Positions 12,414-53,512 of a DNA stretch of 64,000 nt are shown in pieces. The position numbers and the translations under genes were made by a program. Source of the stretch: Betaproteobacteria bacterium UKL13-2 (GTDB taxonomy: Bacteria; Pseudomonadota; Gammaproteobacteria; Burkholderiales; Usitatibacteraceae); contig CP012157.1 of NCBI GenBank assembly GCA_001602455.1, positions 2,413,733-2,477,732 on the forward strand, read 5' to 3'. Positions within the stretch are counted from its first letter, which is position 1. Every line of letters begins with the position of its first letter. Under the pieces are notes generated by a model. That model made no database searches and was not told where the DNA came from. It was given only the letters and a program-made list of their open reading frames with translations.

Positions 12414-12497
12414 GTACGCGTTAAAACGCGCTATCTAATTCCTAATCGGGAAGGTCTAAAAACTCCGTCGGCCCGGCGCAGTCTCACCAGACCTTCG

Positions 12498-15177: not shown

Positions 15178-15185
15178 AGGGCTTC

Positions 15186-23326: not shown

Positions 23327-23472
23327 GGGAACTTCTATAAACCTGCTGCGTGGGCGAATTTGTCCGTTCCCGCGTTTGTCAAATTCGTCGCCGTACACCG
23401 GGTACGTGTCCCGCGTTTGCCCACCCCGTCGCCGCCAACTCGCCCCGCTCGCGACGGTTTTTAGAAGTTCCC
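23327..23472 (-). repeat. 146-bp inverted-end element, copy A
   Basis: Its ends are GGGAACTTCTATAAACC at 23327 and the inverse of GGGAACTTCTAAAAACC ending at 23472. It is flanked by TA on both sides. The interior matches copy B (37739-37884) in reverse orientation, including a GTACACCGGGTACGTGTCCC core. It has no transposase. It lies just downstream of the parA stop. Confidence 0.9.
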
Positions 23473-36065: not shown

Positions 36066-37673
36066 ATGTCTGACTGCATCACCGACTACCTAATCCTTGG
36101 CGCAGGCTCTGCGGGTTGCACCCTCGCCGGACGTCTCTCCGAACGCAGCGACACCCACGTTACCCTACTCGAAGCAGGACCGCGTGATTCCAGCGTCTTG
36201 ATCCATTGCCCGGCGGGAATGGCAGTGATGGCCCAAACCGGCACGGCAAACTGGGGATTCAACACTGTTCCCCAACGCGGGCTATATGGCCGTAAGGGCT
36301 ATCAACCACGAGGCAAAGTGCTGGGCGGTTCAAGCTCGATCAACGCGATGATCTATGCACGCGGACACCGTGCCGACTACGATCATTGGGCAGAACTTGG
36401 CAATACAGGTTGGGCCTATCAAGACGTCCTGCCGTATTTCAAACGCGCCGAGAACAATGAACGTGGCAGCGATCGTTTTCACGGCGTTGGCGGCCCGCTG
36501 AATGTACGCGACCTCGCGAGCCCGAATCGGTACAGCCAAGCGTTCATCGACGCGGGTCACGAAGCCGGGTTCCCGATCAACCACGACTTCAACGGTGCCG
36601 AGCAGGAGGGTGTGGGGCTGTATCAAGTGACACATCGCGCGGGCGAACGCTTCAGCGCGGCAAAGGCTTACCTCGCGCCGAATCGCGGTCGAAGTAATCT
36701 GACAATCGAGACTAACGCACAGGTCACACGGATCTTGTTCGAAGGAAGGCGCGCCGTTGGCGCCGAGTTTGTGCAAAACGGCACCTTGCGGCAGATTCGT
36801 GTACGCCGTGAAGTATTGCTCAGCGCCGGCGCTCTGCAGTCACCGCAGATTCTAATGTTGTCGGGTGTCGGTAGCGCCGATGCTTTATCAAAACTGGGGA
36901 TTCCGGTGGTGCATCACCTGCCCGGCGTCGGGCTTAACCTGCATGACCATGCGGACGCCGTGCAGGTTTACGATGCGCCGAAACTAACCGATTTGTTGGG
37001 CGTCTCGGTTACCGGTGTCTGGCATTTGCTTAAAGGGATTGCGGAGTGGCGTAGCCACCGCACTGGTTTGCTCACGACAAACATTGCCGAAGCGGGCGGC
37101 TTCGTCCGCAGCAGTCCGGCAGAAGCAATTCCCGATCTGCAATTCCATTTCGTGATCGGTAAGTTAGTTGATCATGGCCGCAAGGTCACCTTCGGTCACG
37201 GCTACTCGTGCCATGTGTGTGTCTTGCGACCAAAGAGCCGCGGCAGCGTGACATTGCAATCATCTGACCCGTTGGCCGCACCGTTAATTGACCCGAATTT
37301 CCTGGACGACCCGGAAGACATGGCGCGTATGGTTAAGGGCTTCCGTATCATGCGCGATGTCTTGGCGCAGCCCGCACTGTCACGATACGGCGGACGCGAA
37401 TTAAACCGCTCCGCCACGGCGCAGACTGACGCCGAAATTGAAGGCTTCATTCGCAGCCAGGCAGACTCCATCTACCACCCCGTCGGCACCTGCCGGATGG
37501 GTGGTGATGATGCGGCGGTGGTCGACGCCTCCCTTCGAGTTCATGGCATCGAGGCATTGCGGGTGATTGACGCATCGGTCATGCCGCGTATTGTCGGGGG
37601 CAACACCAATGCGCCGACCATCATGATTGCGGAAAAGGCTGCTGACATGATTCGGCAAAATATCAAACTCTAG
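36066..37673 (+). CDS. GMC-family FAD-dependent alcohol dehydrogenase
   Basis: A 535-residue glucose-methanol-choline oxidoreductase. The N-terminal FAD-binding motif DYLILGAGSAGCTLAGRLSE, the GMC signature GKVLGGSSSINAMIYARGH, and the C-terminal YHPVGTCRMGGDD with the catalytic His and RVIDASVMPRIVGGNTNAP are all visible. It resembles AlkJ/choline-dehydrogenase-like enzymes. The gene follows the aldehyde dehydrogenase at 34502 with a ~97-bp gap, so a two-step alcohol-to-acid oxidation is likely. A 14-bp-stem hairpin begins six bases after its stop. Confidence 0.93.
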   Translation: MSDCITDYLILGAGSAGCTLAGRLSERSDTHVTLLEAGPRDSSVLIHCPAGMAVMAQTGTANWGFNTVPQRGLYGRKGYQPRGKVLGGSSSINAMIYARGHRADYDHWAELGNTGWAYQDVLPYFKRAENNERGSDRFHGVGGPLNVRDLASPNRYSQAFIDAGHEAGFPINHDFNGAEQEGVGLYQVTHRAGERFSAAKAYLAPNRGRSNLTIETNAQVTRILFEGRRAVGAEFVQNGTLRQIRVRREVLLSAGALQSPQILMLSGVGSADALSKLGIPVVHHLPGVGLNLHDHADAVQVYDAPKLTDLLGVSVTGVWHLLKGIAEWRSHRTGLLTTNIAEAGGFVRSSPAEAIPDLQFHFVIGKLVDHGRKVTFGHGYSCHVCVLRPKSRGSVTLQSSDPLAAPLIDPNFLDDPEDMARMVKGFRIMRDVLAQPALSRYGGRELNRSATAQTDAEIEGFIRSQADSIYHPVGTCRMGGDDAAVVDASLRVHGIEALRVIDASVMPRIVGGNTNAPTIMIAEKAADMIRQNIKL

Positions 37674-37678
37674 ATTTT

Positions 37679-37716
37679 ACGGGCGTCTTCAGACCGAATC
37701 GCCTGAAAACGCCCGT
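37679..37716 (+). repeat. Dispersed hairpin, copy 1
   Basis: ACGGGCGTCTTCAG (37679-37692) pairs with CTGAAAACGCCCGT (37703-37716), one mismatch. Similar hairpins occur at 52642-52679 and 61801-61836. It directly follows the GMC gene and could end its transcript, although no T tract follows. Confidence 0.85.
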
Positions 37717-37738
37717 GCCTATTTGACTTTGATGAAGG

Positions 37739-37884
37739 GGGAACTTCTAAAAACCGTCACGAGCGGGTGAAGTTGGCAGTGACGGGTTTGGCAAACACGG
37801 GACACGTACCCAGTGTACGGCGACGAATTTGACACACGCGGGAACTGACAGATTCGCCCGCGCAGTAGGTTTTTAGAAGTTCCC
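37739..37884 (+). repeat. 146-bp inverted-end element, copy B
   Basis: Starts GGGAACTTCTAAAAACC and ends with its inverse (GGTTTTTAGAAGTTCCC). It is strongly similar to copy A (23327-23472, inverted) and copy C (52702-52835, same orientation). It has no transposase. Confidence 0.92.
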
Positions 37885-37950
37885 AAGGGGAAGACGGTTT
37901 CAAATAAATAGTGCAACACAATCTTGTGAAGTCTACAAAGGAGTGTTGCG

Positions 37951-38064
37951 ATGGAAAGCAAGTCGGGTTGTTACAAGACGATGGATCTGGCGGTTCGGGA
38001 GGAGATCAGCCTAGGGCTGGCCAAGGGTTTGGATCAGGCGCAGATTGCGCGTTTGGTCGGTTTT
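37951..38064 (+). pseudogene. IS30-family transposase 5' remnant
   Basis: About 38 residues of an IS30-type N-terminus are readable: MESKSGCYKTMDLAVREEI, then SLGLAKGLDQAQIARLVG, the HTH that starts these transposases. At about 38060 the similarity stops and unrelated sequence begins; the frame runs on to 38226 without further transposase features. An AAAGGAG ribosome-binding site remains before the ATG. No catalytic DDE part is present in the window. Confidence 0.75.
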
Positions 38065-38110
38065 GCACCCCGCCACCCGCCTCAGCGCCCCATAACTCCC
38101 TCAGCCGTGC
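38065..38110. repeat. Block shared with the msrA 3' end
   Basis: Bases 38078-38110 (33 nt) are identical to 52871-52903, and the preceding ~10 bases also match with one extra C. On the minus strand both encode ARLRELWGAEA. In msrA this is the normal C-terminus; here it lies at the break point of the IS30 remnant, with no msrA around it. Confidence 0.8.
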
Positions 38111-38257
38111 CCCAATGGCACCCAGCAGCCCCAACAACCGCCCTTGCTCTAAGCGGGCATGGTCCAGGGGCAAGTGCCGTCGCGTCAAATGTGCGCTGCG
38201 GCCAAGCGCGGTGCTGCCAGATATAACGCGTTTGTGTGGACTGGTTTTGGGTGGGCA

Positions 38258-38285
38258 TGAGGTGTATTTTGCAAAATACACCTCA
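38258..38285. repeat. Perfect 28-bp palindrome
   Basis: The two 14-base arms, beginning TGAGGTGTATTTTG, are exact reverse complements with no loop. There is no T tract. It lies between the IS30 remnant and the DUF2130 gene. Confidence 0.9.
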
Positions 38286-38398
38286 AAACACGGCACAGAA
38301 CAAGCCTTGAGTGCTGCCTTGTGCACCGAAGAAGGTGATGAGCCTGTTGATGGCAAGCGGGCTGAGGGGTGTTACCGAGGGGCGCATTGAGCGCCGTC

Positions 38399-39811
38399 TC
38401 AGTCGGGAGTGTTCCCCGGCAACTCTGCAAACTTGGCCGCCATCGTGGGGTTGCCCCGTGTGAGCTTCTTGATCGTCAAGTCGTCGGCCTTGTCGTTGGC
38501 CAGGCGCAAATTGTTGGCCGACTTGTGCAGCGCTTCCTTGGTTTTTTCCAAGTCCTTGATGGCTTCATCAATGCGCTTGACGGCTTCTTCAAAGCCCTCA
38601 GAGGCCAAGCGCCAATTGCGGCCAAACGACGTCTTGAATTCGTCCAACTGGGTTTCAAACTTGGTGATGTCCACGTTCTGCGAGCGCACCAAGGCCAGCT
38701 CGGTCTTGTACTTCATCGCGTTCAAAGCCGCATTGCGCAACAGCGTGATCAGGGGCACAAAGAACTGTGGCCGCACCACGTACATCTTGGGGTAGCGGTG
38801 CGACACATCGACGATGCCGCTGTTGTACAACTCGCTCTCCGGCTCCAGCAGGGACACCAGCACCGCGTATTCGCAGGCCTTTTCTGTGCGGTCCTTGTCC
38901 AGCTCTTTCAGAAAATCTTCGTTCCGCTTTTTGGTGGCGGTCTCGTCGCTTTCGTTCTTCATCTCAAACATGATGGAGACGATCTCGGCACCCGACTCGT
39001 CTGAGTCGCGAAAAATGTAGTCGCCCTTGCTGCCGGTGCGGGCGTCGTTGTCTTTCTCAAAATGCGCCCGTTGAAAGGCGGCTGCACGGATGCGGTTGAA
39101 CTCGATTTCGCAGTGCTGCTCAAGGGTCTCACCCACCATCTTTGTGGACAGCCGCGCCTTCATGTCGCGCAGACGCGCAATCTCGCCATCACGGTCGCGC
39201 AACTGCAAGGCGAATTGCTCCTTGATGGCTTTCTCTTCGAGCTGGTTTTTTACAGCAATGAGGTTGAGGTCATTTTTCAAGCCATCGCGCTCGCGGGCGA
39301 CCACCCCCACGGCCTCGTTCACAGCCAGTTGCCGCGCCGTTTCGCTGGCCGCCAGCTTGGCTTGCAGCGCCTGAATTTCGGCGTCCTTTTTGGCAGCTTC
39401 GGCCTGCAGCGCATGGGCCAGCTTGGCCTCGGCCAACTGGGCCGCCGCTTGGCTGCTGTTGCGCGCCCTCTCCTGTTCGGTCTTCAGCTCGTTGGCCAAC
39501 GCGTCGCGCTCTTTGCTCACCGTGCCCAAAGCCTCCGACACCGCCAGCTTGCGCGCCACCTCGCCCGCGTCAAGCTGGGCTTTCAGCGCCTGAATCTCCG
39601 TGTCTTTGGCCGCTGCTGTTTTTTGCAGCGCATTGGTGACATTGGCCTCGGCCAAAGCAATCGCATCGCGCTTTTCCCGCTCGGCCAACTCCAGCCGCTC
39701 GTGCAACTGCTTTTCAAAATCGCCATCGCGCACCTGCTTAAGGATGTCGGCGTACCCCGCCTCGTCGATCTTGAAGGCTTTGTGGCAGTGGGGGCAGATG
39801 ATTTCATGCAT
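38399..39811 (-). CDS. DUF2130 domain-containing protein
   Basis: About 470 residues from ATG 39811 ([13 protein letters not shown]); an in-frame start 17 codons upstream looks less likely. It has an N-terminal CxxC zinc-ribbon-like start. A long coiled coil over roughly residues 35-210 is rich in Ala/Glu/Lys heptads. The globular C-terminal DUF2130 region contains [37 protein letters not shown] (a possible PD-(D/E)XK-like E-x-K) and [14 protein letters not shown]. The family has no settled function and is often found near restriction genes. It is the last gene of the island on the minus strand. Confidence 0.85.
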
Positions 39812-39907
39812 GGGACTTGAGTGTGGCGGGTGCGTCAGCGACCTAGAAAATGGTGTAGCCAAGTTGTATGGGGCTTGAAGGTTGGGTGAAACTGCATAGG
39901 GGTCTTG

Positions 39908-42900
39908 TCAATCGTCGAATGGCGACCGCTTTGACTCGCGTTCGGCCTGCCTTTCGTAATCGTCGGCCAGTTCCCTGAGTGTGGTTGCCAGTCGATAGAA
40001 CCCTGCAGCATCAACTTCGTCAGCTTGAGCACGGTATTTGGTCGCAATGTTCTTCTCCGCCTCCCCCGATGTGAATCCGTGCACACCCCGCGAATTGAAT
40101 AGTTCTGTTCTGAACCCATCACGCATGTCCGTAGCTTCTTTTTGATTGAGGGCTGATGCTGCCGCGCGATGAATCCACAGTCCGTCCGGATCAGCAGGCA
40201 CATAAATCAAGGAGTGTCCAAGCATCGTCATGGCGATTTCATAGTGCCCGGTTGCCGTGCATTCAGCCTTCACAGCATCTAGCCACTGATTCAGAGCAGC
40301 GCCATCGTAATTTTCATCAGATCGGTGGCCAGGCGGGGTCTGCCAATTGCTGAGTAGCCGATAAGCATTGGTTGCAATATTCTTTCTATCTTCTGTTGCA
40401 TCTTCAGATGATTGGTCTGCGTTTTTTGATCGAAAAACGAGCCGAATTACCTCGCAAAAAAATCCTGGCTCAGTCGCCAAACGATGCCAAAGGTGCTTGG
40501 GTGATGCGCCGCTATGGCGATTTAACAATGGCAAATATGCCCACTCGACGCGGAATAGATCCTCTCCATTTGTACTTGGATCAGACTGAAGAGCTTTGAT
40601 AACTTCAGTTGTTTCGTAGGTGTCAATCGAATGCGTGCCCTCAGATGATTCAAGCGCTGCAACGAGCGCCTGCACCGCCAGCGCAGCGTTAAATTGCTGC
40701 TCTCCACGCAGCGTCCTACCGACACATCGCAACGCTGCGTATGGGCGCCCATGTTGAATAAGGGAGGCCGTTGCACGATCAAGACCTGTCTCCGTTTCGT
40801 ACGGATTCGCGGTCGTCTTGCTCCAGTACATCGCTTCATTCGTTCCAAGAAGTCTACTGGACCTGTCCCAAGTATTCGATGAAAAAGGGAGGTAGGCCAA
40901 AAACTGCCCAATTTGCGAAGGTGTCCAATTTTGGAAATCAAAGCTATCGACCCACTGCCAGCTCAAACGAGAAAATCTGCTCCAAACGAATCCACTCGCC
41001 AACTGCACTAGATGCTTCTGCTCGGCTTCGAGCAAGGCTGGTAGTACTACGCCATCCACGCCAGGGTCTGCGATTACGCCGAAAGCTAGGCCTACGCGCC
41101 AGGGGGATTGCACGGCCGATGAGAAGACGAGAACAGCAGGCACACCCCCACTTGCAGCCACTTCGGCCAAAGCTTCTTGACGACGGACCTCAAGGGTCGT
41201 GCGCTGTTCCTGGTAGTTACCCTTCTCTTCGTAGAGATCGAAATCACGTTCGCTAAAAAGGCGTTGGTGGCGAAACGCCGGGGCATTTGGCGCGAGCAAA
41301 TCAGTTAGTGCCGCAATCTTGTCAACCTTCTCCTTTCCCATCGACCAGTCGGCATCTAGATACTTTCTGTGTTTGGTTGCCAAATCGACAAGCGCTGTCC
41401 ATACGCTCAGCCTATTGGTTTCTGGCATCGCAATCACAGCGGCAGACCCGATGTGCGTTAACAACTGATCGAAGGCAGATTGCGGAAGGTTCTCAATTCT
41501 GCGAATCAACTCAACGAGCTTCGTGGGATCGCTTTTAGCCGTGGCAATCGCGATTTTGGAGTAATGGTCAGTCTGCTCCCAGTATTCGCCTCGCGTTACA
41601 CCTTTTGCCCAATCATCCGGAATCGTTTGGCGCCATGCTGGTCTGCGACTACCAGACGATATGGAATGCGAATTGGGGAGAAGGCTCAGCAGCAGTTTCC
41701 AACCGACTTCTGGAAGCTCCCTGATCAACATGGAAACGGCGGAGCAGCGCTTGGCAATTGGCGCACAGGTTTGCGGCATCCACGGCAATAGAATTGTGCT
41801 GAGCGAATTGGCCGGGCGATTAGAGTACTTCCCACCTGGGTCACGCGAAGCAAGTTCGCCAAGGCACATTGCCACACGGCTCAGATGTTCGGCAGACCAA
41901 GCGAGAGTCTCTAGCGACCAGAGAACGCCGCTCATGTAGGTTCGCCCCATGAAATCACCACTTTCTTGAGCAAACACTTTGTCGAAAGGACAAGGATTGG
42001 TAACCAGGGCTCTTTCAACAGCGTCAAGAAATTCGTTGGGTGCAGCTTCAGCCAGCAGCGGAAGTAAATCGTTTAGGCCAGCCCATCGTTCCCAGTCAGC
42101 ATCTGAAAGAACAGCACGGACAGTTAAGGCTGCGGTGGCTTCAGCTTTGCCAACCGAAGTTGAAACAAGTGCATTAGGAAAGCTACCCAATAGAGCCAAT
42201 GATTCAGCGAGACCATTCCGCAAGGTCTGTGAATGCTTCATCACCTTTCCGTGCATTCGAGATGCATATCGCTCGTTGGTAGGCAGATCAAATTGTGGGT
42301 CTCTTTCCACAAATACGGCAGTAACCAGCGATTGCAACTTCTCTAAGTGTTCGTCAAAAATTCTCGGTCCAAGCGCGTGCCACCCCTCATACCGGGAAAC
42401 GAACCGCCAACTGCCGTCACGTTGAGTTAGGGGAGTGCCCGGACGATGGGTGATTTCACGCATCTTCCCGATCCACTCCCCGTACCCGTTTCCCGACAAA
42501 CCCTCCACAACCGTGCGGTCCGCATCAGAGTTTTCCGCCCACGAGCCAAGAAGTACCGCAATTGCCAATTCCGCCGCCGCGGTGCTCTCTGCCCACTCGG
42601 GCATCACCGACAGGTTTTGTAGGCACCTCAGCAGAGTTCCAAGGTTGCCTCCGCTTTTCTGTGCCAAAGTGCGGGCGCGCTCCTCGCCGTAGCCGCACTT
42701 CACCAAGGCTTCTCTGACATGGTGGCTTCGTGGTGCCGATAGCGCCACACTGGTTGGATCGGGGATTCCACCAGTGGGACCGCCAAAAACTATTGCATGG
42801 TTTGCTCGCCGTGCCTTTTGAATGAGCTTTGTGCCAGCATCCCCCGTCAAGTCAAGTGTTGCATCGGCTACAAGTACCAATTTTTCAGGTTGCTGAACCA

Positions 42901-43708
42901 TGTTATTCCATGCATCAATGCTTGAGACGATCACGCAGCGACCGGCGGCGTCGACTCGGCTCACGTCGTCAAGGTTTTGCACAGCGGCAGCGACAAAGTC
43001 AGCGACCTGATCTGGGAAATGTGTATTGAGCCTAAGTTGAATGCTTGTGCCGGCGAAAACTTCATTGATCTTGGTTGTCGCCTCTTCGCGATTCGCAAGG
43101 AATAAGGTGGGTGCGAGTGAAGGAGGTTCACCGTAGCTACGGAGCAGGCTCCAACGTTGTTCGGGCGTTTCAATGTGATCTATTGAATGGCCGAGGATGA
43201 TATTGGCGAGCCAAACTTCAACGGGCGGAAATTGTCGTATCCAGTCGATCAGCTTTGTCCCGTCGATTATGCGAACGTCCAGCCATTCGCTCTCTTTTCT
43301 TCGTTTTCTTAGCCAAGATGCCTGTGCCTTGTCTTTCCACGTGTGGGGAAAGCTACGTCGCCCAGAAATGGGGGTGACGAACACGAAGGTTGACTGGACT
43401 CTTTCGTCTTTTGGTATTCCCGAAACGAGGCCGTCGTAGTCTTCTGTTGCCTTGTCCCCAGGTTTTTCACCGGTGCCTATCTCCCAGAAAGAGCGACCTT
43501 CAGGTACGAAGGGATCGAATGAGTAGTCCACATCCAATACACCATCGGGTCCGTGTTGGCCGATGCTGTCGCCCAGGGGAAATCGACGCTCTTTGGGGCG
43601 CGGGGAAGATGCTGCGACCAATCGCCAAACAAGCTCAACAATGACTCCCTGCGCTTCCCGCGCGTTTCCTCTAACCCAAGTATCGAGTTGGTTTTCTGTC
43701 AAAAGCAT
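39908..43708 (-). CDS. Large protein (1266 aa) with nuclease-like N-terminus and STAND-like core, function unknown
   Basis: The N-terminal ~170 residues look like a PD-(D/E)XK-type fold: VIVELVWRL (E25), GPDGVLDVD (D55), SFWEIGTG (E76) and DKATEDY (K86), then STFVFVTP and DVRIIDGTKLIDWI. The middle (about 200-350) has strand-helix repeats such as CVIVSSIDAW and LVLVADATLDL. A KSGGNLGTLLRCL segment then recalls the lid/winged-helix part of STAND NTPases, but I find no Walker A. The remaining ~900 residues are helical, Trp-rich and repeat-like, plausible as a sensor scaffold. The start at 43708 has AAGGAAAA upstream. Its place beside a type I restriction system suggests phage defence; that is inference. 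I do not recognise a named family. Confidence 0.8.
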   Translation of the reverse strand: MLLTENQLDTWVRGNAREAQGVIVELVWRLVAASSPRPKERRFPLGDSIGQHGPDGVLDVDYSFDPFVPEGRSFWEIGTGEKPGDKATEDYDGLVSGIPKDERVQSTFVFVTPISGRRSFPHTWKDKAQASWLRKRRKESEWLDVRIIDGTKLIDWIRQFPPVEVWLANIILGHSIDHIETPEQRWSLLRSYGEPPSLAPTLFLANREEATTKINEVFAGTSIQLRLNTHFPDQVADFVAAAVQNLDDVSRVDAAGRCVIVSSIDAWNNMVQQPEKLVLVADATLDLTGDAGTKLIQKARRANHAIVFGGPTGGIPDPTSVALSAPRSHHVREALVKCGYGEERARTLAQKSGGNLGTLLRCLQNLSVMPEWAESTAAAELAIAVLLGSWAENSDADRTVVEGLSGNGYGEWIGKMREITHRPGTPLTQRDGSWRFVSRYEGWHALGPRIFDEHLEKLQSLVTAVFVERDPQFDLPTNERYASRMHGKVMKHSQTLRNGLAESLALLGSFPNALVSTSVGKAEATAALTVRAVLSDADWERWAGLNDLLPLLAEAAPNEFLDAVERALVTNPCPFDKVFAQESGDFMGRTYMSGVLWSLETLAWSAEHLSRVAMCLGELASRDPGGKYSNRPANSLSTILLPWMPQTCAPIAKRCSAVSMLIRELPEVGWKLLLSLLPNSHSISSGSRRPAWRQTIPDDWAKGVTRGEYWEQTDHYSKIAIATAKSDPTKLVELIRRIENLPQSAFDQLLTHIGSAAVIAMPETNRLSVWTALVDLATKHRKYLDADWSMGKEKVDKIAALTDLLAPNAPAFRHQRLFSERDFDLYEEKGNYQEQRTTLEVRRQEALAEVAASGGVPAVLVFSSAVQSPWRVGLAFGVIADPGVDGVVLPALLEAEQKHLVQLASGFVWSRFSRLSWQWVDSFDFQNWTPSQIGQFLAYLPFSSNTWDRSSRLLGTNEAMYWSKTTANPYETETGLDRATASLIQHGRPYAALRCVGRTLRGEQQFNAALAVQALVAALESSEGTHSIDTYETTEVIKALQSDPSTNGEDLFRVEWAYLPLLNRHSGASPKHLWHRLATEPGFFCEVIRLVFRSKNADQSSEDATEDRKNIATNAYRLLSNWQTPPGHRSDENYDGAALNQWLDAVKAECTATGHYEIAMTMLGHSLIYVPADPDGLWIHRAAASALNQKEATDMRDGFRTELFNSRGVHGFTSGEAEKNIATKYRAQADEVDAAGFYRLATTLRELADDYERQAERESKRSPFDD

Positions 43709-43761
43709 TGATTTTCCTTGCCGTATTGCTGGTGAATTTGTAGTTGTGAAAACGGTATAAC

Positions 43762-44010
43762 TTAGTGATATAGCCTTTTCGCAAATCTTCCATCCCCACC
43801 CACCCCCATCACCAACCTCTGTCTAGCCCTAGTAGCCGCCACATAAAACACCCGGGCCGCTTCCTTCTCGGCTCCCGTCACGGCATTCATATATCCCACG
43901 CAGGGTAGCTCCACCGCAGATAACCCAAGGCCGCTACTGACCTTCTTGGTCAGCACCTGAATGTCGTCTGCACCGGGGTGGTCGTTGCCGCCGTTAAGTA
44001 ATGAGCTCAC
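43762..44010 (-). pseudogene. UvrD/Rep-type helicase C-terminal remnant
   Basis: Eighty-two residues retain only the last helicase block: DDIQVLTKKVSSGLGLSAVELPCVG (motif V region) and ARVFYVAATRARQRLVMGVGG (motif VI), then FAKRL. Such sequences end NERD/UvrD-family helicases of about 600-700 residues. The upstream motor domains are absent. It overlaps the ORF6N stub by 4 bases, as if the junction had been made by deletion within an operon. Confidence 0.8.
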
Positions 44011-44213
44011 GGGGCCTTCCTACCTTTGGCGGATGACTTTGGTGGATCGGACAGATTTAGGAGGTGGTCGCAATTTGCGACCCCATACAGCGCAGCCAGG
44101 TCCACATCCAGCATGACGCGCAAGCCGCGAATCACTTGGATACGGCTCCCAATGCGCCGCAGCATTAACGTGTTGTGCTGATCACTCATCTTCATGGCTT
44201 CCTCAGGCTTCAA
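44007..44213 (-). pseudogene. ORF6N-domain protein remnant
   Basis: The 68-residue frame begins like an ORF6N/KilA-N protein: RIQVIRGLRVMLDVDLAALYGV is the family's N-terminal signature. It then diverges after about residue 44 into unrelated sequence and stops. Full-length members are ~150-300 residues and often lie inside type I restriction operons, as here (the ATG overlaps the hsdR stop). Confidence 0.75.
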
Positions 44214-47200
44214 CGATTCCCTGCCTGCCCCTGCACCAACAGATCAAACACAATCCGCGCAAAGTTAGCCGCTTTGCTCGGGTCGGCCAGCAACTGCATC
44301 ATCTGGTTCTGGTGGGCATCACTGCTGTCGAGGATCGCGTCGTCAATGGCCTTCGAGAAGTCACCCAGCAGGGCCTGCTCGGCCGAGTTGTTCTCGATCT
44401 GCTTCATCACCTTGATGTTCTCACCCACCTTGTCGCGGATCGTGTAGGCGTAGTTCACCATGTCCTTGTCGGTGAGTTGGTCGGTGACGAACACCTCGTT
44501 CAAGCGGTTGATGATCTGCGACAGAAACTCTTCTTGTCTGTCCTTTGGCTTGGCCGTTCCCAGTCCTTCGCCGGGCACCAGCTTGTGGTTCTGGCTATTT
44601 TCTTGAAGCACCAGATCTTGCTGGCGCATCTTGGCCACGCGGTAGTGGCTGAGCACCACATTGCCCAGGTCGATGTCGTCTTCATCGAGCAAGGTTTCGC
44701 GCAGCATGGGCCGCAGGTTGCGGGCGTACAGGCTGAGCTTTTCCAGATCGGTGTCGTCGTAATCCACGATCTGCGACATGAACTCATAAAAGCGCACAAA
44801 GGTGCCCAGGTCTTTCTTGAAGATTTCGAGCGCGTCTTTTTCCTTCTGGCATTCCTTCAGACTTTTCTCGGCGTTCGCGATCAGCACTGCATCGCCCGTC
44901 TTCAGGGTGCGCTCAAACATCTCCTTGGCTAGTCTGAAAGCCTCTACCGCCGATTTGTAGCGCAACTGCCAGCGTTGCACCGCTGGCTTGCAGATATTGG
45001 CAATCGCCGCGTTGCTCTTGTTCTTCACATAAAACGCGGTGCAGAACTGCTCCACTTCCGTCCAAGTAAAAATGCCAGCGGCACGCAGCTTGTCTTGCAG
45101 CGCAAAGATCAGGTTCGGGTCAGACACATCCAGCAGCTCAGCCGTCTGAAAATACGGCTGAAACGCTTCCAGAATCTCATCCGGCTCATTGAAGAAGTCC
45201 AGCACAAAAGTGCCCGTCTCGGCCTTGTTGGGGTAGGTGCGGTTCAGGCGCGACAGCGTTTGCACGCACTCCACCCCGGCCAGCTTCTTGTCCACATACA
45301 TGGCGCACAGCTTGGGCTGGTCAAACCCGGTCTGGAACTTGTTGGCGACGACCATCACTTGGTAGTCGTCCGAATCAAAAGCCTTGCGCATATCGCGGCC
45401 CTTGAGGTTCGGGTTCATATTGCTTTCGGTGAACTTCTCGCCGACCGTGCCGATCAGGCTCGCCGTGCTCTGTCCCACCATGGCCGGATCTTTGTCGGTG
45501 AACTCCACCTCACCCGAAAACGCCACCATAGCGTGAATCTTTTGGTAGCCAGGTTTTTCACCTTGGTCTGCGATGTACTTGTCAAAGCACTGCTTGTAGC
45601 GCACCGCCTCCTTGCGCGAGCTGGTGACCACCATGGCCTTGGCCTGCCCACCGAGCAAGCCCATCACGTTGTCCTTGAAGTGCTCCACGATCACCATCAC
45701 CTTTTGGGCAATGTTGTGGTCGTGCAGGCGCACCCATTGGTTGAGCTTCACCTTCGCCCGCTTGCTTTCCACTTCCGCGTCGGCATCTTGCACCTTCAGG
45801 GCCAGCTTGTACGCCACCTTGTAGTTGGTGTAGTTCTTCAGCACATCGAGGATGAAGCCCTCCTCAATCGCTTGGCGCATGCTGTACACATGAAACGCCG
45901 CGGGCTTATTGGTGACGGACGCCACCTCGTCCGGGCGCGGCAGGCGGCCAAACAATTCCAGCGTCTTGGCCTTGGGCGTGGCGGTAAAGGCAAAGTAGCT
46001 CAGGTTGCCCGAGGCGCGGCGCGCCGCCACCGTAGCGGCGATGATGTCGTCGCTGTCCAGCTCCTCGGCTTCTTCTCCCGCCTCCCCTGCTTCCTTCATC
46101 AGCACCTCTTTGAGCTGCCGCGCCGTAGAGCCGCTTTGCGACGAATGCGCCTCGTCGGCAATGATGGCGTAGCAACGGTCTTTGAGGCTCACGCTGTTTT
46201 CAATCGCCTTCAACACAAAGGGGAAGGTCTGGATGGTGACGATGATGATGGGCTGGGCCGACTCCAAGGCCCCGGCCAGCTTTTCAGACTTGGAGCCGTC
46301 GCCTTCCTTGTTGTTAATGCGCCCCACCACGCCATCGGTGTGTTCAAACTGGTAGATCGTGTCTTGCAACTGATCGTCCAACACGGTGCGGTCGGTCACC
46401 ACAATCACAGAGTCAAACTGCTTTTTGCCGTCGGCCTTGTACAGCGACGAAAGCTGATGCGCCACCCAAGCAATCGAGTTGGACTTGCCCGAGCCCGCGC
46501 TGTGCTGAATCAGGTACTTCTGCCCCGGCCCCTCGCTGCGCGCCGCCGCCAGCAGCTTGCCCACCACGTCCCACTGGTGGTAGCGCGGGAAGATCATGCT
46601 TTCCTTCTTGTACTTGCGGCCTTCCCAGTCTTCCTTGTCCTCAATCTGCAGGTGCACAAAGCGGGCCAAGATGTTGAGCAGGTTGTCCGGCAGCAGCACC
46701 TCGTTCCACAGGTAATCCGTGGCGTAGCGGTTGATGTCATACGGCACCTCATTGCCCGCGCCGCCGTCGTGTGTGCCTTTGTTGAAGGGCAGAAAGTAGG
46801 TGCCCTCCCCCTCCAAGCGTGTGGCCATGTGCACCTCGTACTGGCTCACCGCAAAGTGAACCAGCGCACCGCGCTTGAAGGTCAGCAGCGGCTCGGCTTT
46901 CTTGGCCACCGGGTCAACAGGCAGGCGCGTGGTTTTGTACTGCCGAATGGCGCGATCCACCGCCTGTTTGAATTCACTCTTCAGTTCCAACGTGGCCACC
47001 GGCACGCCATTCACAAACAGCACCAGGTCAATGCGCCAGGCCTTGGCCTTTTTGGCGTCACTGTTTCCCGTCTCCAGCAGGTGAGCATCCGTCGCCCACG
47101 GGCTATACACCAGCTCTGGCACCACGCGCAGGCGGTTTTTGGCATAGCGAGCCAGTGTGTCAGGGTTCAGGTCGTGCTCGGGCTTGAACTGGCACAGCGA

Positions 47201-47527
47201 CAAGCGCGCATTGCGGTCGCGCAGCTCGTGGCGCAGCACGCCCAGCGTGCCAAAGGTGCGGCTGTCTTTGTGCGTGGCATTGGGGTCGGCCTTGCCCAGT
47301 TGCGCGGCAACCAGTTGCAAAAACTTCTGCTCTGCATCCTTGGGGTGGTTGGCGCAAAACTTTTGCCACTGCACGTCTTGCGTTTCCTGCACAAAGCCCA
47401 ACGCATCCTCGGGGTACAAGGCCAGTTCGCGGTTGTACTTGTCTGGCGAGCCGAGCAGCCAGCCATTGGCCAGAAGTTGGCGAATGATGTCGTCTTGAAA
47501 GATGCGTTCGGTGGCTTGGTCGCTCAT
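44210..47527 (-). CDS. hsdR: Type I restriction endonuclease subunit R
   Basis: Motor-nuclease of a type I system, 1105 residues, acting only in complex with HsdM and HsdS. The N-terminal nuclease has RIDLVLFVNGVPVATLELK (D167, E181-x-K183). The SF2 translocase has Walker A AGSGKS (345-349) and DEAHSS, with later helicase motifs including KFQTGFDQPKLCAMYVDK. A helical C-terminal domain for HsdM docking follows. The frame is open and full length, unlike hsdM upstream. It begins 36 bp after hsdS. Confidence 0.95.
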   Translation of the reverse strand: MSDQATERIFQDDIIRQLLANGWLLGSPDKYNRELALYPEDALGFVQETQDVQWQKFCANHPKDAEQKFLQLVAAQLGKADPNATHKDSRTFGTLGVLRHELRDRNARLSLCQFKPEHDLNPDTLARYAKNRLRVVPELVYSPWATDAHLLETGNSDAKKAKAWRIDLVLFVNGVPVATLELKSEFKQAVDRAIRQYKTTRLPVDPVAKKAEPLLTFKRGALVHFAVSQYEVHMATRLEGEGTYFLPFNKGTHDGGAGNEVPYDINRYATDYLWNEVLLPDNLLNILARFVHLQIEDKEDWEGRKYKKESMIFPRYHQWDVVGKLLAAARSEGPGQKYLIQHSAGSGKSNSIAWVAHQLSSLYKADGKKQFDSVIVVTDRTVLDDQLQDTIYQFEHTDGVVGRINNKEGDGSKSEKLAGALESAQPIIIVTIQTFPFVLKAIENSVSLKDRCYAIIADEAHSSQSGSTARQLKEVLMKEAGEAGEEAEELDSDDIIAATVAARRASGNLSYFAFTATPKAKTLELFGRLPRPDEVASVTNKPAAFHVYSMRQAIEEGFILDVLKNYTNYKVAYKLALKVQDADAEVESKRAKVKLNQWVRLHDHNIAQKVMVIVEHFKDNVMGLLGGQAKAMVVTSSRKEAVRYKQCFDKYIADQGEKPGYQKIHAMVAFSGEVEFTDKDPAMVGQSTASLIGTVGEKFTESNMNPNLKGRDMRKAFDSDDYQVMVVANKFQTGFDQPKLCAMYVDKKLAGVECVQTLSRLNRTYPNKAETGTFVLDFFNEPDEILEAFQPYFQTAELLDVSDPNLIFALQDKLRAAGIFTWTEVEQFCTAFYVKNKSNAAIANICKPAVQRWQLRYKSAVEAFRLAKEMFERTLKTGDAVLIANAEKSLKECQKEKDALEIFKKDLGTFVRFYEFMSQIVDYDDTDLEKLSLYARNLRPMLRETLLDEDDIDLGNVVLSHYRVAKMRQQDLVLQENSQNHKLVPGEGLGTAKPKDRQEEFLSQIINRLNEVFVTDQLTDKDMVNYAYTIRDKVGENIKVMKQIENNSAEQALLGDFSKAIDDAILDSSDAHQNQMMQLLADPSKAANFARIVFDLLVQGQAGNR

Positions 47528-47563
47528 GGTCGAATTGAGATTTGGCTGTGTAGGTTAAGACAA

Positions 47564-48877
47564 TCAGGCGGCAGCTTGCCAGTTGCGTACGTCGATCTTG
47601 CCGGTGACAGCGGCGGAGATCAGGGCGGTGCGGCGTTCTTGGAGAAGTTCGATGCCGCGCTTTGCTTTTTCGACTAGGGCGTTGAATTGTTCTCTGGATT
47701 TCTTTATTGATTCAACAATCGCCTCTACCTCTTGATCAGGTGGTACGGGAACCGTGATTGCTTTGACAATGTCAGTGTTCAAATTTGGCTGTCCAGAACC
47801 TTGCTTAATTCGCTCCCTTAGATCATCGGTCAGCGTTGACAAGTAGAAGTATGCGAATTCATGGTTTAAGGTTAAGTCTTCAAAGCCAACGACTCCATCG
47901 TTTGCATTGGCATCGATAGAAAGAATTTTTGGCACACCTAGGGTCGCACCGCTATTTGAAAGCAACAGCGTCCCCTTTGAAAAAACCCGACATTGTTCAC
48001 TGCCCTTCTTGGTAAGGAAGGTTTCCGTTTCAGTCAAATAAATGTTGTCGTCCTTGGTAATTTCTGCCACCGTAACCCAAGGCGAATAATCGCCATTGAA
48101 CAAAGCTGGATCGCCAGCTGGTCTCGGTGAGCCACCACGGACTACCATCGAGATGAAGCCAAACTTTCGGATTGCCCAATGCGCGGGCACTTCGCCTAGC
48201 CACTCCACGCCGGAGTCTTTCAACGGGGCGTTGGGGTTGAGGCCTTTGGTGACGGCGTGGCTGATGACGGCTTGGCGCTTTTCCTTGAGCAACTCAATCA
48301 ACCGCTGCTGCTTCTCGATCAAGGCATCAATCTTCGCGGTTTCGTGATCGAGGAAGTCAGCGATTTGCTTCTGTTCGTCCAGTGACGGGCAAAGCATTTG
48401 CAAACGCCGCATTTCTTCAAACTTCATTGATTGCCGCAGACCACCGCCCATGCCGTAGAACACCTTTGTGGTGTCATAGGAATGCAGTAATCGGTAAAGA
48501 TAGCGATCAAGAAATATCTGCTTTGCAGTCAGTTTGAGATAGGCAGAAGTAATGATCCCCTTCTCGCATGCAAGGCCTACTCGAAGACTTCTCTTGTCGT
48601 TTTGCAGGTCAGTCAATCTGAGGATGATGTCGCCAGCCGCCACGAGCTGATAAGTATTGAACGACTCGGGCAGTAGCCCGTGATTATCCTCAACATCTCT
48701 GCGGATGATTCTTCCGTAACTCAGCGACAAGACATTATTTTCAGCGCCGTCATCGTTCTTTAAAACGTCAGTGGACGCCAATGAAAACAGTGGACTCACG
48801 TCCCAAGAGTTCGGAATCGCGCCGACCCACTCAACGCCCGAATCTTTGTACTCCGAATAAGCCTTGTACCGACTCAT
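47564..48877 (-). CDS. hsdS: Type I restriction specificity subunit S
   Basis: Gives the DNA target of the HsdRMS complex. The 437-residue protein has the usual two target-recognition domains. The first opens with KDSGVEWVGAIPNSWDV, the second with KDSGVEWLGEVPAHWAI, and each is followed by a helical spacer (EQKQIADFLDHETAKIDALIEKQQRLIELLKEKRQAVI and the C-terminal EAIVESIKKSREQFNALVEKAKRGIELLQERRTALI). The frame is open. It overlaps yhcG by 4 bases upstream. Confidence 0.95.
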   Translation of the reverse strand: MSRYKAYSEYKDSGVEWVGAIPNSWDVSPLFSLASTDVLKNDDGAENNVLSLSYGRIIRRDVEDNHGLLPESFNTYQLVAAGDIILRLTDLQNDKRSLRVGLACEKGIITSAYLKLTAKQIFLDRYLYRLLHSYDTTKVFYGMGGGLRQSMKFEEMRRLQMLCPSLDEQKQIADFLDHETAKIDALIEKQQRLIELLKEKRQAVISHAVTKGLNPNAPLKDSGVEWLGEVPAHWAIRKFGFISMVVRGGSPRPAGDPALFNGDYSPWVTVAEITKDDNIYLTETETFLTKKGSEQCRVFSKGTLLLSNSGATLGVPKILSIDANANDGVVGFEDLTLNHEFAYFYLSTLTDDLRERIKQGSGQPNLNTDIVKAITVPVPPDQEVEAIVESIKKSREQFNALVEKAKRGIELLQERRTALISAAVTGKIDVRNWQAAA

Positions 48878-49911
48878 TCCGCCTCTCCGTTGCCCACGTT
48901 CGCCAAATAAAACTCATGCAGTTTGGCCTGCAGCAGTTGCTTGTCTGGCAACTGGTTTTGGTACTGGGCAACCAAGGCTGGGGAGAGGCTGCGGCTCAGG
49001 GCGTACTCCACCACTTCGTCGTCTTTGCTGGCGCACAGCAACAGGCCGATGGCGGGGTTTTCGTGGGGCTTTTTGTGGTCGCGGTCCAGCGCTTCGAGGT
49101 AAAAGTTGAGCTGGCCCAGGTGTTCGGGCGAGAAGCGGGTGGTCTTGAGTTCGATGGCGACCAGGCAGTTGAGGCCACGGTGGAAGAACAACAAATCGAG
49201 GGCGAAATCTTGCTTGCCCACTTGCAGCGGGTATTCGCTGCCCACAAACAGAAGTCGCGCCCCAGTTCGAGCAGAAACTGCCGCAGTTGCGCCAGCAGAC
49301 CGCGTTGCAAGTCGCTCTCCAGGTGGGCGGCGGGCAGGTCGAGAAATTCGACCAAGTAGCTGTCCTTGAACACGCTGGCCGCTCGGGGTGAATTTGTGTC
49401 ACCAGTGGTGACACTTTTGCCGGGCTGAGGACGACGCGCTCAAAAAGGGCTGTGTCGTATTGCCGCTCCAGCTCGCGCTAGACCATTTTTCCTGCGCTGC
49501 CATCTTGAGGTAGAACTCGCGCTCTTCCGGGCGCTGGCTGCGGCCGAGGATGATGAGGTTGTGCGTCCAGGGCAATTGTGTCAGCAGTGCTGACACAATT
49601 TGCGGGTCGGGGTAAGCCTCGTAAAACTGCCGCATGCGGAACAGGTTGCGGCGAGTAAAGCCTTTCAGCCCCGGCTGCGTGCTGACCAGGTGCTGGGCCA
49701 GTTGATCAACAACGCCCTCGCCCCATTCGGCGGCTTTGATCTTGGCACTGAGATAGGCGCCCACCTGCCAGTACAGCTCGATCAGCGCGGTGTTGACCGC
49801 CTGATAGGCGCGCTGGCGGGCGCTTTCGATGAGACGGGAGATTTCGTCGAAATCGGGAGCATTCGTGGGTGATGTTGGAGTTGGAGTTGGGGTTGGTGTC
49901 AAATCACTCAT
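48874..49911 (-). pseudogene. YhcG-type PDDEXK nuclease (DUF1016), three frame breaks
   Basis: The N-terminal DUF1016 half reads in one frame from ATG 49911 (ARQRAYQAVNTALIELYWQVGAYLS...RRNLFRMRQFYEAYP...EREFYLKMAAQEKWS). The rest is found by shifting frame near 49479 (RELERQYDTALFERVV), 49374 (VFKDSYLVEFLDLP) and 49250 (FVGSEYPLQVGKQDFALDLLFFHRGLNCLVAIELK, the nuclease motif). Each step fits one missing base, and no other stop or substitution damage is seen. Reconstructed length is about 346 residues, normal for YhcG. Its position between hsdM and hsdS is common. Confidence 0.88.
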
Positions 49912-52247
49912 GAATGCACCTCGCGCAGCAGCGCCATGATTTCAGCACTCACGGCGTCCAGATCGGCGTCAATGGCTTCCAATGGCCGTGGCGGCTGGTA
50001 TGGTAGAAGTGGCGGTTGAACGGGATTCATACCCGACGATGCCGATCTCGCCATCTTTGGCGTCGCGCTTGCTGGCGTCTATCCACGCGTCCGCAACATG
50101 GGGCTGCACTTCGGCGATGAAGTAGGCCTCTACGCTGGCGCTCACGGTGCGGCTGGGGTCTAGCGCCACGTTCTCAAAGTCGCGCAGCTCGCCATCGGCT
50201 TGGTATTCGATGACTTCCTTGTTCACCGCAAACAGGCCATACAGTGGCTGGCTTTGCCTTTGTGAACCTTCTTGATCACCTTTGCGGCGGCGGGGTTCTT
50301 CCAGCTCACGGCATCGGCGATCTGCTTTTGCTCTTTGGCGTCCAGCGCGAATTTGTCACCATGGCCTGCCCGCTTGCTCGCGGCTTTGATGGCGTCGTCA
50401 TAGCCATTGAAGTCATCAAACTGGCGCTGCCGATCTCGCCTTGCAGGGCGCGGGCTTTGAGCAGCACAGTCTTTTGTGCCAGCCAGGTGCTGGCATCAAG
50501 CAGGTCTTTGATCTGCTTTTCTTTGAGGTCGGCAAAGTGGCTTTTGAGATAGGCGCGAATTTCGACGTGGTGCTCGCCTAGCTGGCCGTAGAGCTCGCAA
50601 TCTGCTGCGTCTTGCCAGTGGTCCTGACCATACTCGGAGTAGATCCAATGCATGGCCGCATTCAGGGTGCCGGACTCAAAGCGCAAGCTGGCGATGCGTT
50701 CATCGCTGAACTGCCACGACAAACGCAGTGGCCGTTCGATGGTGATGCGGCGGTAGCCAAACTCGTGCGCGGCAAAAATTTTGCTGGCGAAGGTTTTGAC
50801 GGCTTCGGGCTTGGGGGTGAGCTTGGAGTTGGTGGCTTGGCGGCCACGGTTGCTTTTGACTTCTGCCGGTTTATCGAGCGCCTGCGCTTGGACCACCTCA
50901 AAGTTGCCAAAGCAGCGGGTGATGGTGGCGATGTCGTCATCAATCATCACATGGCGCTTGCTGCCCAGCGATTTGCGCATCTTGCCGCAGAGGTTGACGC
51001 CGTTGATGAGCTGCACCCGGCCTTGCGCTCGGCGGGCTTTTTATTGGAGAGCACCCATACATAAGTGGCAATGCCGGTGTTGTAGAACATGTCGGTGGGC
51101 AGCGCGACGATGGCCTCTAACAGATCGCTTTCCAGAATATGGCGGCGAATTTCGGATTCGCCCGAAGCTGCGCCGCCGGTGAACAGCGGCGAGCCATTCA
51201 AGATGATGCCAATGCGTGAACCGCCTTCCTTCACATCGCGCAGCTTGCTGATGAGGTGGAGCAAAAACAGCAGCGAGCCGTCAGACACACGCGGCAGGCC
51301 AGGGCCAAAGCGGCCATCAAAGCCTTTGAGGGTGTGTTCGTCGGTGATGTCGCCTTCGATCTTTTTCCAGTCCACGCCAAAGGGCGGATTGGAGAGCATG
51401 TAGTCGAACTTGCTGGTGTAGAGGTGGTCGTTGGAGAGCGTGTTGCCGAGCTTGATGTGGCTGACATCCTGCCCCTTGATGAGCATGTCGGCCTTGCAGA
51501 TGGCGTAGCTTCAGGGTTCAGCTCCTGACCAAAGGCACGCATGGCGGCTTGGGGGTTGAGCTCGTGCACATATCCATGCCCGCCGACAGAAAGCCGCCGG
51601 TGCCCGCCGTGGGGTCATAAATGGTGCGGATGATGCCGGGCTTGGTGAGGGCTTCGTCATCTCCATGAACACCAGCGAGGTGGTGAGGCGCACGATGTCG
51701 CGCGGGGTGAAGTGTTCGCCAGCCGTTTCGTTCGAGCTTTCGGCAAACTTGCGAATCAGCTCTTCAAACACCAAGCCCATCTCGTAGTTGGAAACAGCTT
51801 TGGGGTGCAGGTCCATGGTGCGGACTTTTTGCACCACCTTGTAGAGCAGGTTGGCATCGTTCAGCAGGCCAATGAATTCGGCGAACTTGAAGTGGTCAAA
51901 AATCTCGCGGGCGTCTTTGGAAAAGCACTGGATGTACCGCTCCAGATTGGCCTTGATGCCCGACTCGCCCAAGGTGCTCAGGTCCATGGGCGAGGTGTTG
52001 AAAAAGCTTAAGCCCCCGGTTGTACGCAGCAGCAGCTTTTCCTTGGCCTCCTCGGCAATGGCCATCTTCTCCACCTTGGCGGCTTCGGCCAGCACAGCAG
52101 ACTTGCTGCTTTCCAACACACATTCCAGACGGCGCAGCAGGGCAAAAGGCAGGATGACGCGGCCATATTGGCTCTGTTTGAAGTCACCGCGCAGCAGGTC
52201 GGCCAGCGCCCACAGATCGGCGGCAGGTTGTTGGTTTCTTGGGTCAT
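49908..52247 (-). pseudogene. hsdM: Type I modification methylase HsdM, about nine frame breaks
   Basis: Reconstructed from three forward frames: MTQETNNL then [17 protein letters not shown]; a long block through [37 protein letters not shown] (SAM motif I); [14 protein letters not shown] (catalytic NPPF); and a C-terminal block ending LREVHS. Shifts are needed near 52223, 51660, 51571, 51510, 51018, 50424, 50249, 50025 and 50000. Every one is explained by a single missing base, usually in a two- or three-base run. Corrected length would be about 780 residues. The stop overlaps yhcG (ATGA). As it stands no methylase could be made; whether this is decay or sequence error is discussed in the findings. 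Confidence 0.88.
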
Positions 52248-52641
52248 TTTTTACGAACGAGGGGTTGGGGTTTCAACCTGATAGCCCACAAGTATTACAC
52301 GGGGTAGAGGGTGAATTGGCCACCCCATGCGCTGGCCTTTATAGAAACAAAGCCCGATCCGTTGCCGGTTCGGGCTTTGTTTGGGGTGCTTGGTGGCTGG
52401 CTTACTTTTTTGTAGGCGGCAAGTCCGTGCAGCTACGGTGCGCCACTTCTGCCGCCATGCCGCCGCCCAAGATCTTGCCGTAAAAACAAAAATAGGGCAG
52501 ACCCTCATGGCACTACCTTAAGTCTGTCGTCCCGGCGAACAACCACAGGGGTTGTTCACCGGGGAGACAGTTTTCGGAGTCGGTTTAGGGGTTGCACTAA
52601 TTTCCTGAAACCGTCTCCCTAAAAATAAAACCCTATATTCG
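52248..52641. other. Spacer upstream of hsdM
   Basis: About 390 bases without a credible gene. It holds the 13-bp-stem hairpin at 52345-52382. The operon promoter should lie in its left part, but I cannot pick a convincing -35/-10 pair. Confidence 0.45.
52345..52382. terminator. Intrinsic terminator-like hairpin
   Basis: AAACAAAGCCCGA (52345-52357) and TCGGGCTTTGTTT (52370-52382) form a perfect 13-bp stem around a 12-base loop, with A and T runs making it usable in both directions. It lies ~100 bp upstream of hsdM, where it could insulate the island operon. Confidence 0.65.
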
Positions 52642-52679
52642 ACGGGCGTTTTCAGGTTAAATCGCCTGAAAACGCCCGT
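52642..52679 (+). repeat. Dispersed hairpin, copy 2
   Basis: ACGGGCGTTTTCAG (52642-52655) and CTGAAAACGCCCGT (52666-52679) form a perfect 14-bp stem. It precedes element copy C as copy 1 precedes element copy B. Confidence 0.88.
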
Positions 52680-52701
52680 CCCTGCTTGACTTTGATGATG
52701 T

Positions 52702-52835
52702 GGGAACGTCTCGAAACCGTCGCGAGCGGGCGAAGTTCGTGCCGACGGGTTTGGCAAACACGGGTCACGTACCCAGCGTACGGCGAGCACCGCAGGCGCA
52801 AAATTCGCCCACGCAGCAGGTTTGTAGAAGCGCCC
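52702..52835 (+). repeat. Inverted-end element, copy C (134 bp, diverged)
   Basis: Starts GGGAACGTCTCGAAACC and ends with GGTTTGTAGAAGCGCCC; the interior shares GGGTTTGGCAAACACGGG and the CACGTACCCAG core with copy B. It is more decayed than A and B. It begins 13 bp beyond the reconstructed msrA stop. Confidence 0.87.
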
Positions 52836-52847
52836 AATGTCAACGAT

Positions 52848-53512
52848 CTACTGCTTGATCGCCCCGCCACCGCCTCAGCGCCCCATAACTCCCTCAGCCG
52901 TGCGTCGCGGCCGCATCCGTTACGATAGTACTTGTAGCGGATGGGATTTTTTAAGTAGTAATCTTGGTGATAGTCCTCCGCCGGATAAAACGTCGTCGCA
53001 GCGGTAATTTCGGTTACAACGCTCGACTTAAAGGGCTTTGACTTAACCAATGCCGCCTTCGACGCCTCCGCAGCGACCTTCTGTGCGTCATCGTGCGTGA
53101 AAATCCCGGTGCGATACTGCGATCCGACATCGCAGAACTGTTGGTTCTTCACGGTGGGATCGATGTTGCGCCAAAACACGGCGAGCAGGCGCTCATAGCT
53201 GACTTTCTTGGGGTCATAAACTATCTCGATGGCCTCGGTATGGCCGGTGTATCCAGCAGAGACCTCTTTGTACGTCGGGTTCTTTTGTTTGCCGCCGATA
53301 TAGCCGGATGTGGTGGATAACACGCCGTCAATGGCATCAAACGGCGGTTCCATACACCAGAAGCAGCCGCCGGCAAACGTTGCCTTGGCGGTGGCTGCGG
53401 TGGGCGCAGGTGCCGGTTTTGGTTTCTCCAACGCGCTGGCGGGCGCACTGTTCACAACGGCAATGGCGGTAACTGCGGCGGCCATTGCGAAAAGTTTCGT
53501 GACAATTTTCAT
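52848..53512 (-). CDS. msrA: Peptide-methionine (S)-S-oxide reductase, exported
   Basis: Reduces methionine-S-sulfoxide in proteins. A signal peptide (residues 1-28, MKIVTKLFAMAAAVTAIAV then APASA) implies periplasmic action. GGCFWC carries the catalytic Cys, and EAIEIVYDPKKVSYERLLAVFWRNIDPT and DYHQDYYLKNPIRYKYY are family motifs. As written, the frame runs past the normal C-terminus (GRDARLRELWGAEAVAG) into repeat copy C and stops only at 52652. One extra G in the CCCC run at 52862-52865 would give AIKQ and a stop at 52848, a typical MsrA end. I therefore annotate that end and treat the extension as an artefact or recent frameshift. Divergent from phzF. Confidence 0.85.

Follow-up and report, generated by a model that had tools for sequence, protein, structure and literature searches.

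The window considered here is a stretch of 64,000 nucleotides of Betaproteobacteria bacterium UKL13-2 (contig CP012157.1, positions 2,413,733 to 2,477,732), and the gene under study lies on its minus strand at 39908-43708, where a first-pass annotation made from the letters alone had placed a 1266-residue protein beside DUF2130 and type I restriction genes; the open reading frame (ORF) proved intact, and both kinds of gene flank it. AAGGA sits 6 nt 5' of the ATG start, no sigma-70-like promoter was found for the gene by consensus scan, and the gene is single-copy in its own genome (3.39 Mb). According to AlphaFold2 models and alignments the protein has four parts: PD-(D/E)XK-like, AAA+/STAND-fold, winged-helix-like, and alpha-solenoid (Table 1). 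The ratio of nonsynonymous to synonymous substitution rates (dN/dS) against the closest homologue, that of Simplicispira hankyongi (86% identical), is 0.157 for the whole gene, which is therefore under purifying selection and not decaying; by part, the ratio is 0.115 in the nuclease-like domain, 0.086 in the middle domain, and 0.174 in the rest.

Table 1 Features of the 1266-residue gene and its surroundings. Positions are those of the window; pLDDT, predicted local distance difference test.
Feature	Position	Strand	Basis or remark
Complete gene, 1266 aa	39908..43708	-	ORF call; ATG start; single match in own genome
Residues 1-180, PD-(D/E)XK-like domain, putative nuclease effector	43169..43708	-	AlphaFold2 order and profile match to PD-Lambda-4_A homologues
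D55, invariant putative metal-binding residue in GxDG	43544..43546	-	36/36 covered rows
E76-I77-G78, E-x-G of putative active site; usual K replaced by G/S/T	43475..43483	-	E 36/36, G 32/36
K86, invariant lysine opening next helix, candidate migrated catalytic lysine	43451..43453	-	36/36 covered rows; helix 83-97
Residues 181-370, AAA+/STAND-fold pseudo-ATPase with lid helices	42599..43168	-	VIA-align Z 8-9.3; profile match; dN/dS 0.086
Residues 229-231 (NTH), turn replacing P-loop	43016..43024	-	Secondary structure; alignment to GLSGVGKTRL
Residues 378-436, winged-helix-like segment	42401..42577	-	Helices and two-stranded wing in model m7e44b04a8fc2 residues 13-71; secondary-structure order only
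Residues 437-1266, alpha-solenoid, putative sensor	39911..42400	-	Model pLDDT 86, almost all helices
One-gene cassette common with Simplicispira hankyongi	39900..43962	-	86% DNA identity; flanks unrelated
Accessory island holding the gene	37737..52848	.	Absent from same-genus G285, G286; direct repeats at edges

The nuclease-like pattern that had been read in the N-terminus is present as D55, E76-x-G78, and K86, and the predicted fold order is compatible with it. Both N-terminal domains are shared by 36 non-redundant proteins, one of them (L065) in a frame-shifted version; the 36 rows of the family alignment that cover the sites are the query and 35 intact non-redundant relatives, L065 being frame-shifted there. 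D55, G56, E76, K86, A87, and D149 are identical in all 36 of these rows, and G78 is kept as G in 32. Conservation of D55, E76, and K86 goes beyond chance, since most relatives are just 22-44% identical to the query overall. In the AlphaFold2 model covering this region (mean pLDDT 79), the order of helices (H) and strands (E) in residues 1-180 is H16-34, E40-42, E56-60, E71-77, H83-97, E106-111, H126-138, E144-148, a mixed alpha/beta order that fits PD-(D/E)XK, structure comparison of the region being confined to the match of residues 1-369 to Avs4 given below. E76 lies inside strand 71-77, D55 immediately before strand 56-60, and K86 near the start of helix 83-97. The conserved D...E...K set of the PD-(D/E)XK superfamily is present, with K displaced from its usual place, and in the model this arrangement would have the expected look of a PD-(D/E)XK site with a displaced lysine.

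Residues 175-391 match the AAA+ ATPases ClpA, ClpC1, and RFC with Z 8-9.3 over ~175-200 residues (VIA-align; Foldseek list), and the AAA+ alpha/beta fold with a helical lid is present there by structure comparison; nearly all matches in a viral-structure search were likewise AAA+ proteins, with one low-ranked endodeoxyribonuclease I. The STAND-like core described earlier is thereby confirmed, and so is its missing Walker A, of which the alignment has none in the query and none in the relatives bearing the domain (0/36). Walker B acidic residues are also missing from the query and relatives. A three-residue turn joins strand 224-228 to helix 232-244 at the place where homologous PD-Lambda-4_A proteins carry GxSGVGKTR; many members carry a conserved motif, A-D/E-S-x-E-E-A-x-A-F, in place of the P-loop, and the lid carries a GRSLTVLRR motif. 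A GxxxxGKS in one relative (L033) is located in the nuclease-like domain, outside the ATPase domain, and was dismissed as chance. With the lowest dN/dS of all parts, the middle domain is the most strongly constrained of them and no relic; the lost P-loop is a clade-wide state held under purifying selection and no private mutation. The helical repeat-like part of ~900 residues, also noted at first pass, is an alpha-solenoid by model and Foldseek; matches of the C-terminal model are HEAT/ARM-type solenoids (e.g., CAND1, importins), which mark a solenoid and point to no specific relative.

A check against PADLOC, suggested in the first-pass annotation, gave a divided answer: version 2.0.0 does not detect the family, and for the query not one PADLOC family scores at E 1 or below; several relatives match PADLOC PD-Lambda-4_A weakly and co-linearly (E 0.014 to 9.5e-5), which led to a search for PD-Lambda-4_A homologues and to profile-profile comparison. 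The query family and PD-Lambda-4_A align over their full length (hhalign, 1100 columns, pairwise E 2.3e-22); domain by domain, the E-values, all of them single-pair values, are 2.8e-9 for the nuclease, 4.6e-6 for STAND, and 1.1e-13 for the C-terminal part, and all six off-diagonal comparisons give 0.05 or worse. By these profile comparisons, the query is a distant, co-linear homologue of PD-Lambda-4_A and a member of a broad family. PD-Lambda-4 was discovered in E. coli through a functional selection for defence against phages (Vassallo et al. 2022, PMC9519451); a listing of the system assigns it a P-loop NTPase (PMC10952713). PD-Lambda-4_A (PADLOC PDLC03991) and the query have equal length and domain order, with three parts co-linear; PD-Lambda-4_A homologues, however, have GxxGxGKT, the P-loop being kept in 8/8 PD-Lambda-4_A-like sequences covering the site, and a D..QxK nuclease motif (D51..Q78-x-K80 in the alignment), whereas the query has neither. 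The P-loop NTPase domain, a feature of PD-Lambda-4, is found neither in the query nor in its 36 relatives, and the PADLOC PD-Lambda-4_A profiles do not match the query. A midpoint-rooted tree built on the C-terminal part (42 rows) splits the proteins with a P-loop cleanly from those without one (100/100), and the query falls outside the PD-Lambda-4_A group, in a separate, fully supported group. The protein is conserved and related to a known anti-phage protein, yet stands outside the defining features of PD-Lambda-4_A. Its named relatives are only PD-Lambda-4_A, which is anti-phage, and, by fold, Avs4; no housekeeping family from outside defence contexts was matched. Of the earlier proposal of a new effector with an unusual lost P-loop, the loss is real; the novelty is not isolated, as the protein belongs to a PD-Lambda-4_A-homologous family in which the loss is clade-wide. 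On plasmid pPR4 of Rhizobium leguminosarum (L062), a P-loop-less gene (7548-11666) is followed after ~64 bp by a P-loop PD-Lambda-4_A gene (11730-15575; PDLC03991, E 8e-66), and this in turn by a protein with a weak CAP12/Pycsar Toll/interleukin-1 receptor (TIR) match (E 0.0042).

Within the P-loop-less side of the tree, adjoining the query clade, a nested group (99/98) has neither of the two N-terminal domains. Their place is taken either by a different domain of ~330 aa with invariant D61, D62, and Q81-x-K83, at E. coli prophage-associated loci, or by a separate upstream gene (L066, L031). At L066 the product of the upstream gene is a Het-E N-terminal protein (PF20701, E 1.5e-40); it ends in NHSGTGDNVGGNKI, which is similar to QNHTGTGHNVAGDLTIY, the beginning of the solenoid protein, and L031 presents a similar picture. 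Such exchange of N-terminal modules on one solenoid is the hallmark of an effector-sensor protein. We infer that the P-loop was lost and the domain then discarded, on the general rule that P-loops are ancestral.

Several solenoid relatives deserve description. The solenoid relatives at L066 (7540-7860 with 7866-10634) and L031 (about 7600-10694) are without nuclease or STAND domain; a GTGHNVAGD-like motif opens both solenoid proteins and is echoed at the C-terminal end of the upstream gene, and each locus is a possible amyloid-signalling pair with a receptor that has no NTPase. Genes of ~1180 aa from E. coli and prophages (L027-L030, L032, L067), labelled hypothetical protein where annotated, carry the same solenoid behind the other D..QxK domain, a combination present in 8 of 5426 complete E. 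coli genomes; the label 'Cap4' for this other nuclease-like N-terminus was dropped, as only the D61/D62...Q81-x-K83 pattern spoke for it and no Pfam or PDB profile. At L005 (879-1523) and in the upstream ORF of L006, an out-of-frame overlapping ORF with RNEHYH precedes the solenoid gene, and the split falls within the winged-helix-like segment in both; a HEPN label for L005:879-1523 was rejected, RNEHYH being its single basis and Pfam giving no match.

Distribution of the family is sporadic. The gene is absent from 12/12 same-genus genomes, and blastn found no query gene in E. coli genomes; more distant relatives occur in 6 other genomes among 274 sampled from the class and in 12 others among 398 sampled from the phylum, on 22 plasmids (including one Bacteroidota and one Actinomycetota plasmid), and on viral contigs. 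PHROG phrog_18693, of unknown function, matches the query over its full length (E 6e-158); neither the query nor the family profile matched any PDB entry by sequence, and a UBA match to the query (E 0.019) was put down to chance. Some relatives have an N-terminal helix-turn-helix (HTH; PF01381, E 7.6e-9 in L012 and 1.3e-5 in L011), which Pfam does not find in the query or its close clade. GiPD474, a Gifsy prophage defence ATPase that came up in a text search, was dropped, since its domain is of the ParA/AAA_31 type and contains Walker A (PMC12724215).

The gene lies in an island of 15 kb, bordered by msrA and a GMC oxidoreductase gene. In two genomes of the same genus these flanking genes are present without the island: in one (G286) they are separated by ~1.9 kb of different sequence, in the other (G285) by almost nothing. 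Direct repeats mark the island edges (229 bp, 78%, 37658-37886 and 52621-52837; 43 bp, 42/43, 38068-38110 and 52862-52903), and no integrase-like gene was noted within 37737-52848. The block common with Simplicispira hankyongi extends from 254 bp before the start codon to 8 bp past the stop codon. Just upstream of the gene lies a fragment of the C-terminus of a UvrD-type helicase (43762-44010), which travelled with the cassette, as the Simplicispira copy has the larger portion of it too (as far as 43962). Around the plasmid relatives, defence annotation other than toxin-antitoxin stands within 7-9 kb at 9/15 annotated loci (Abi, SIR2, AbiEi/Eii, type I restriction, Shedu, PD-Lambda-4). The control, made up of five 50-kb stretches from those plasmids, has two methyltransferase genes at the edges and toxin-antitoxin genes only, the comparison being a hand count with a small control.

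We infer a defence function for the 1266-residue protein. With a probability of about 0.6, it is a one-protein anti-phage or anti-mobile-element receptor that consists of a PD-(D/E)XK-type nuclease effector, a solenoid sensor, and between them an AAA+/STAND-fold domain unable to bind nucleotide in the usual way. This reading draws on the invariant D55, G56, E76, and K86, the AAA+ fold, the homology to PD-Lambda-4_A, the separation on the tree, the module swaps, the accessory location, the defence neighbours, and the constraint on the pseudo-ATPase. The C-terminal solenoid would bind a component of a phage or other invader; binding would rearrange or oligomerise the protein through its pseudo-ATPase and winged-helix parts, with no ATP switch; and the N-terminal nuclease would then cut DNA, whether of phage, host, or both. 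That no nucleotide would be needed is suggested by the loss of the motifs and by the nested relatives that dispense with the domain. Several points weigh against a receptor of this kind: Pfam, NCBIfam, and PADLOC gave no usable match to the query; the E-x-G is without the canonical lysine, and catalysis by K86 is a guess; the tandem at L062 places a P-loop PD-Lambda-4_A beside a family member, so that a partner could supply nucleotide in some lineages; and a sporadic, mobile distribution and defence neighbours fit other roles too.

The N-terminal domain might bind DNA or protein and no longer cut, the whole being a pseudo-enzyme regulator. The lysine of ExK is indeed replaced by G, L012 and L011 carry the HTH, and many relatives are annotated as helix-turn-helix transcriptional regulators; but a merely structural domain would tolerate changes at D55, E76, and K86, which are invariant in the 35 intact relatives, the HTH is missing from the query and its close clade, and in relatives other effector-like modules take its place, so that we hold a regulator to be rather improbable. 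Mixed rings of active and inactive AAA+ subunits are well known, and the pseudo-ATPase could act only with a P-loop partner, the two forming a mixed oligomer whose other half is PD-Lambda-4_A-like or some other STAND protein (cf. the inactive subunits of clamp loaders). The tandem genes on pPR4, where the partner's P-loop is intact, speak for such a pair; L062 is, however, the only place with such a partner among loci scanned with 7-10 kb flanks, the query's own genome has one family member, and the query and its 86% homologue have just this gene in common, all of which makes an obligate partner distinctly unlikely.

As its neighbours are adjacent and on the same strand, the protein could serve the type I restriction system or DUF2130 as an accessory subunit. 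This has very little in its favour otherwise: the flanks of the 86% homologue are unrelated and the shared block ends with the gene and its short margins, plasmid relatives adjoin many different genes, the window's hsdM is broken across frames, and G+C content at third codon positions is 0.52 in the gene against 0.80 in hsdR and 0.78 in DUF2130 (hsdS, 0.57). A functionless, decaying remnant of PD-Lambda-4_A, as the lost P-loop and the several fragments among the window neighbours could be taken to mean, is scarcely credible; it is largely refuted by the selection test, in which dN/dS is lowest in the very domain without the P-loop, by ORFs kept across classes and phyla, and by the new conserved motif that occupies the place of the P-loop.

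The proposed nuclease-bearing receptor may be set beside known systems. The layout of Avs4/AVAST (nuclease, AAA+/STAND, repeat sensor) is also found in models of the query; no sequence relation was detected, and PADLOC gave no match to Avs profiles. Avs4 (8dgf) aligns over model residues 1-369 with Z 8.9 over 270 residues and a root-mean-square deviation of 16.9, so that the relative placement of the domains differs. Bacterial STAND/NLR receptors are understood as ATP-driven switches, and where tested the Walker A lysine is essential: immunity by Avs5 depends on it (PMC12931631), and the query, being without it, cannot use the Avs5 switch. P-loop-less plant NLRs (the rice Pb1 family and NLRs with degenerate P-loops) have been proposed as helpers (PMC3478704) and are, like the query as read here, STAND-layout immune receptors naturally without a P-loop; unlike it, they are eukaryotic proteins, unrelated to the query, with NB-ARC and leucine-rich repeats, and the role proposed for them is that of helpers and not of single-protein nucleases. 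Bacterial amyloid-signalling NLR pairs (BASS/BELL; PMC7889193) resemble L066 and L031 in the GTGHNVAGD-like motif shared with the upstream gene, but the receptor at those two loci is without any NTPase domain, and the query itself is without the motif.

A more far-reaching proposal can be put forward only tentatively, with the odds somewhat against it: a whole clade of bacterial NLR-like receptors may activate without nucleotide, the former ATPase domain serving as a strongly selected nucleotide-free hinge or ligand-binding part, and in the nested lineage that domain may have been discarded and the solenoid coupled straight to effectors that can be exchanged, among them a Het-E-type partner via the shared amyloid-like motif. 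A natural P-loop-less clade with invariant effector residues makes the nucleotide need of receptor activation testable, and the series of P-loop STAND, pseudo-STAND, and no STAND on one solenoid provides matched natural variants for such a test. The family, so far unannotated, also enlarges the set of candidate defence genes; it occurs across Pseudomonadota and on plasmids of Bacteroidota and Actinomycetota.

Two further observations concern the island and its surroundings. hsdM (50306-52119) and a YhcG/DUF1016 nuclease gene (48874-49911) are each split across frames, hsdR and hsdS being open; either the type I system has apparently been inactivated or the assembly has indels at that place. 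A partly self-complementary 146-bp repeat, possibly an element like a miniature inverted-repeat transposable element (MITE) or a repetitive extragenic palindrome (REP), occurs three times in the window (23327-23472, 37739-37884, and 52702-52830) and also in a sister genome.

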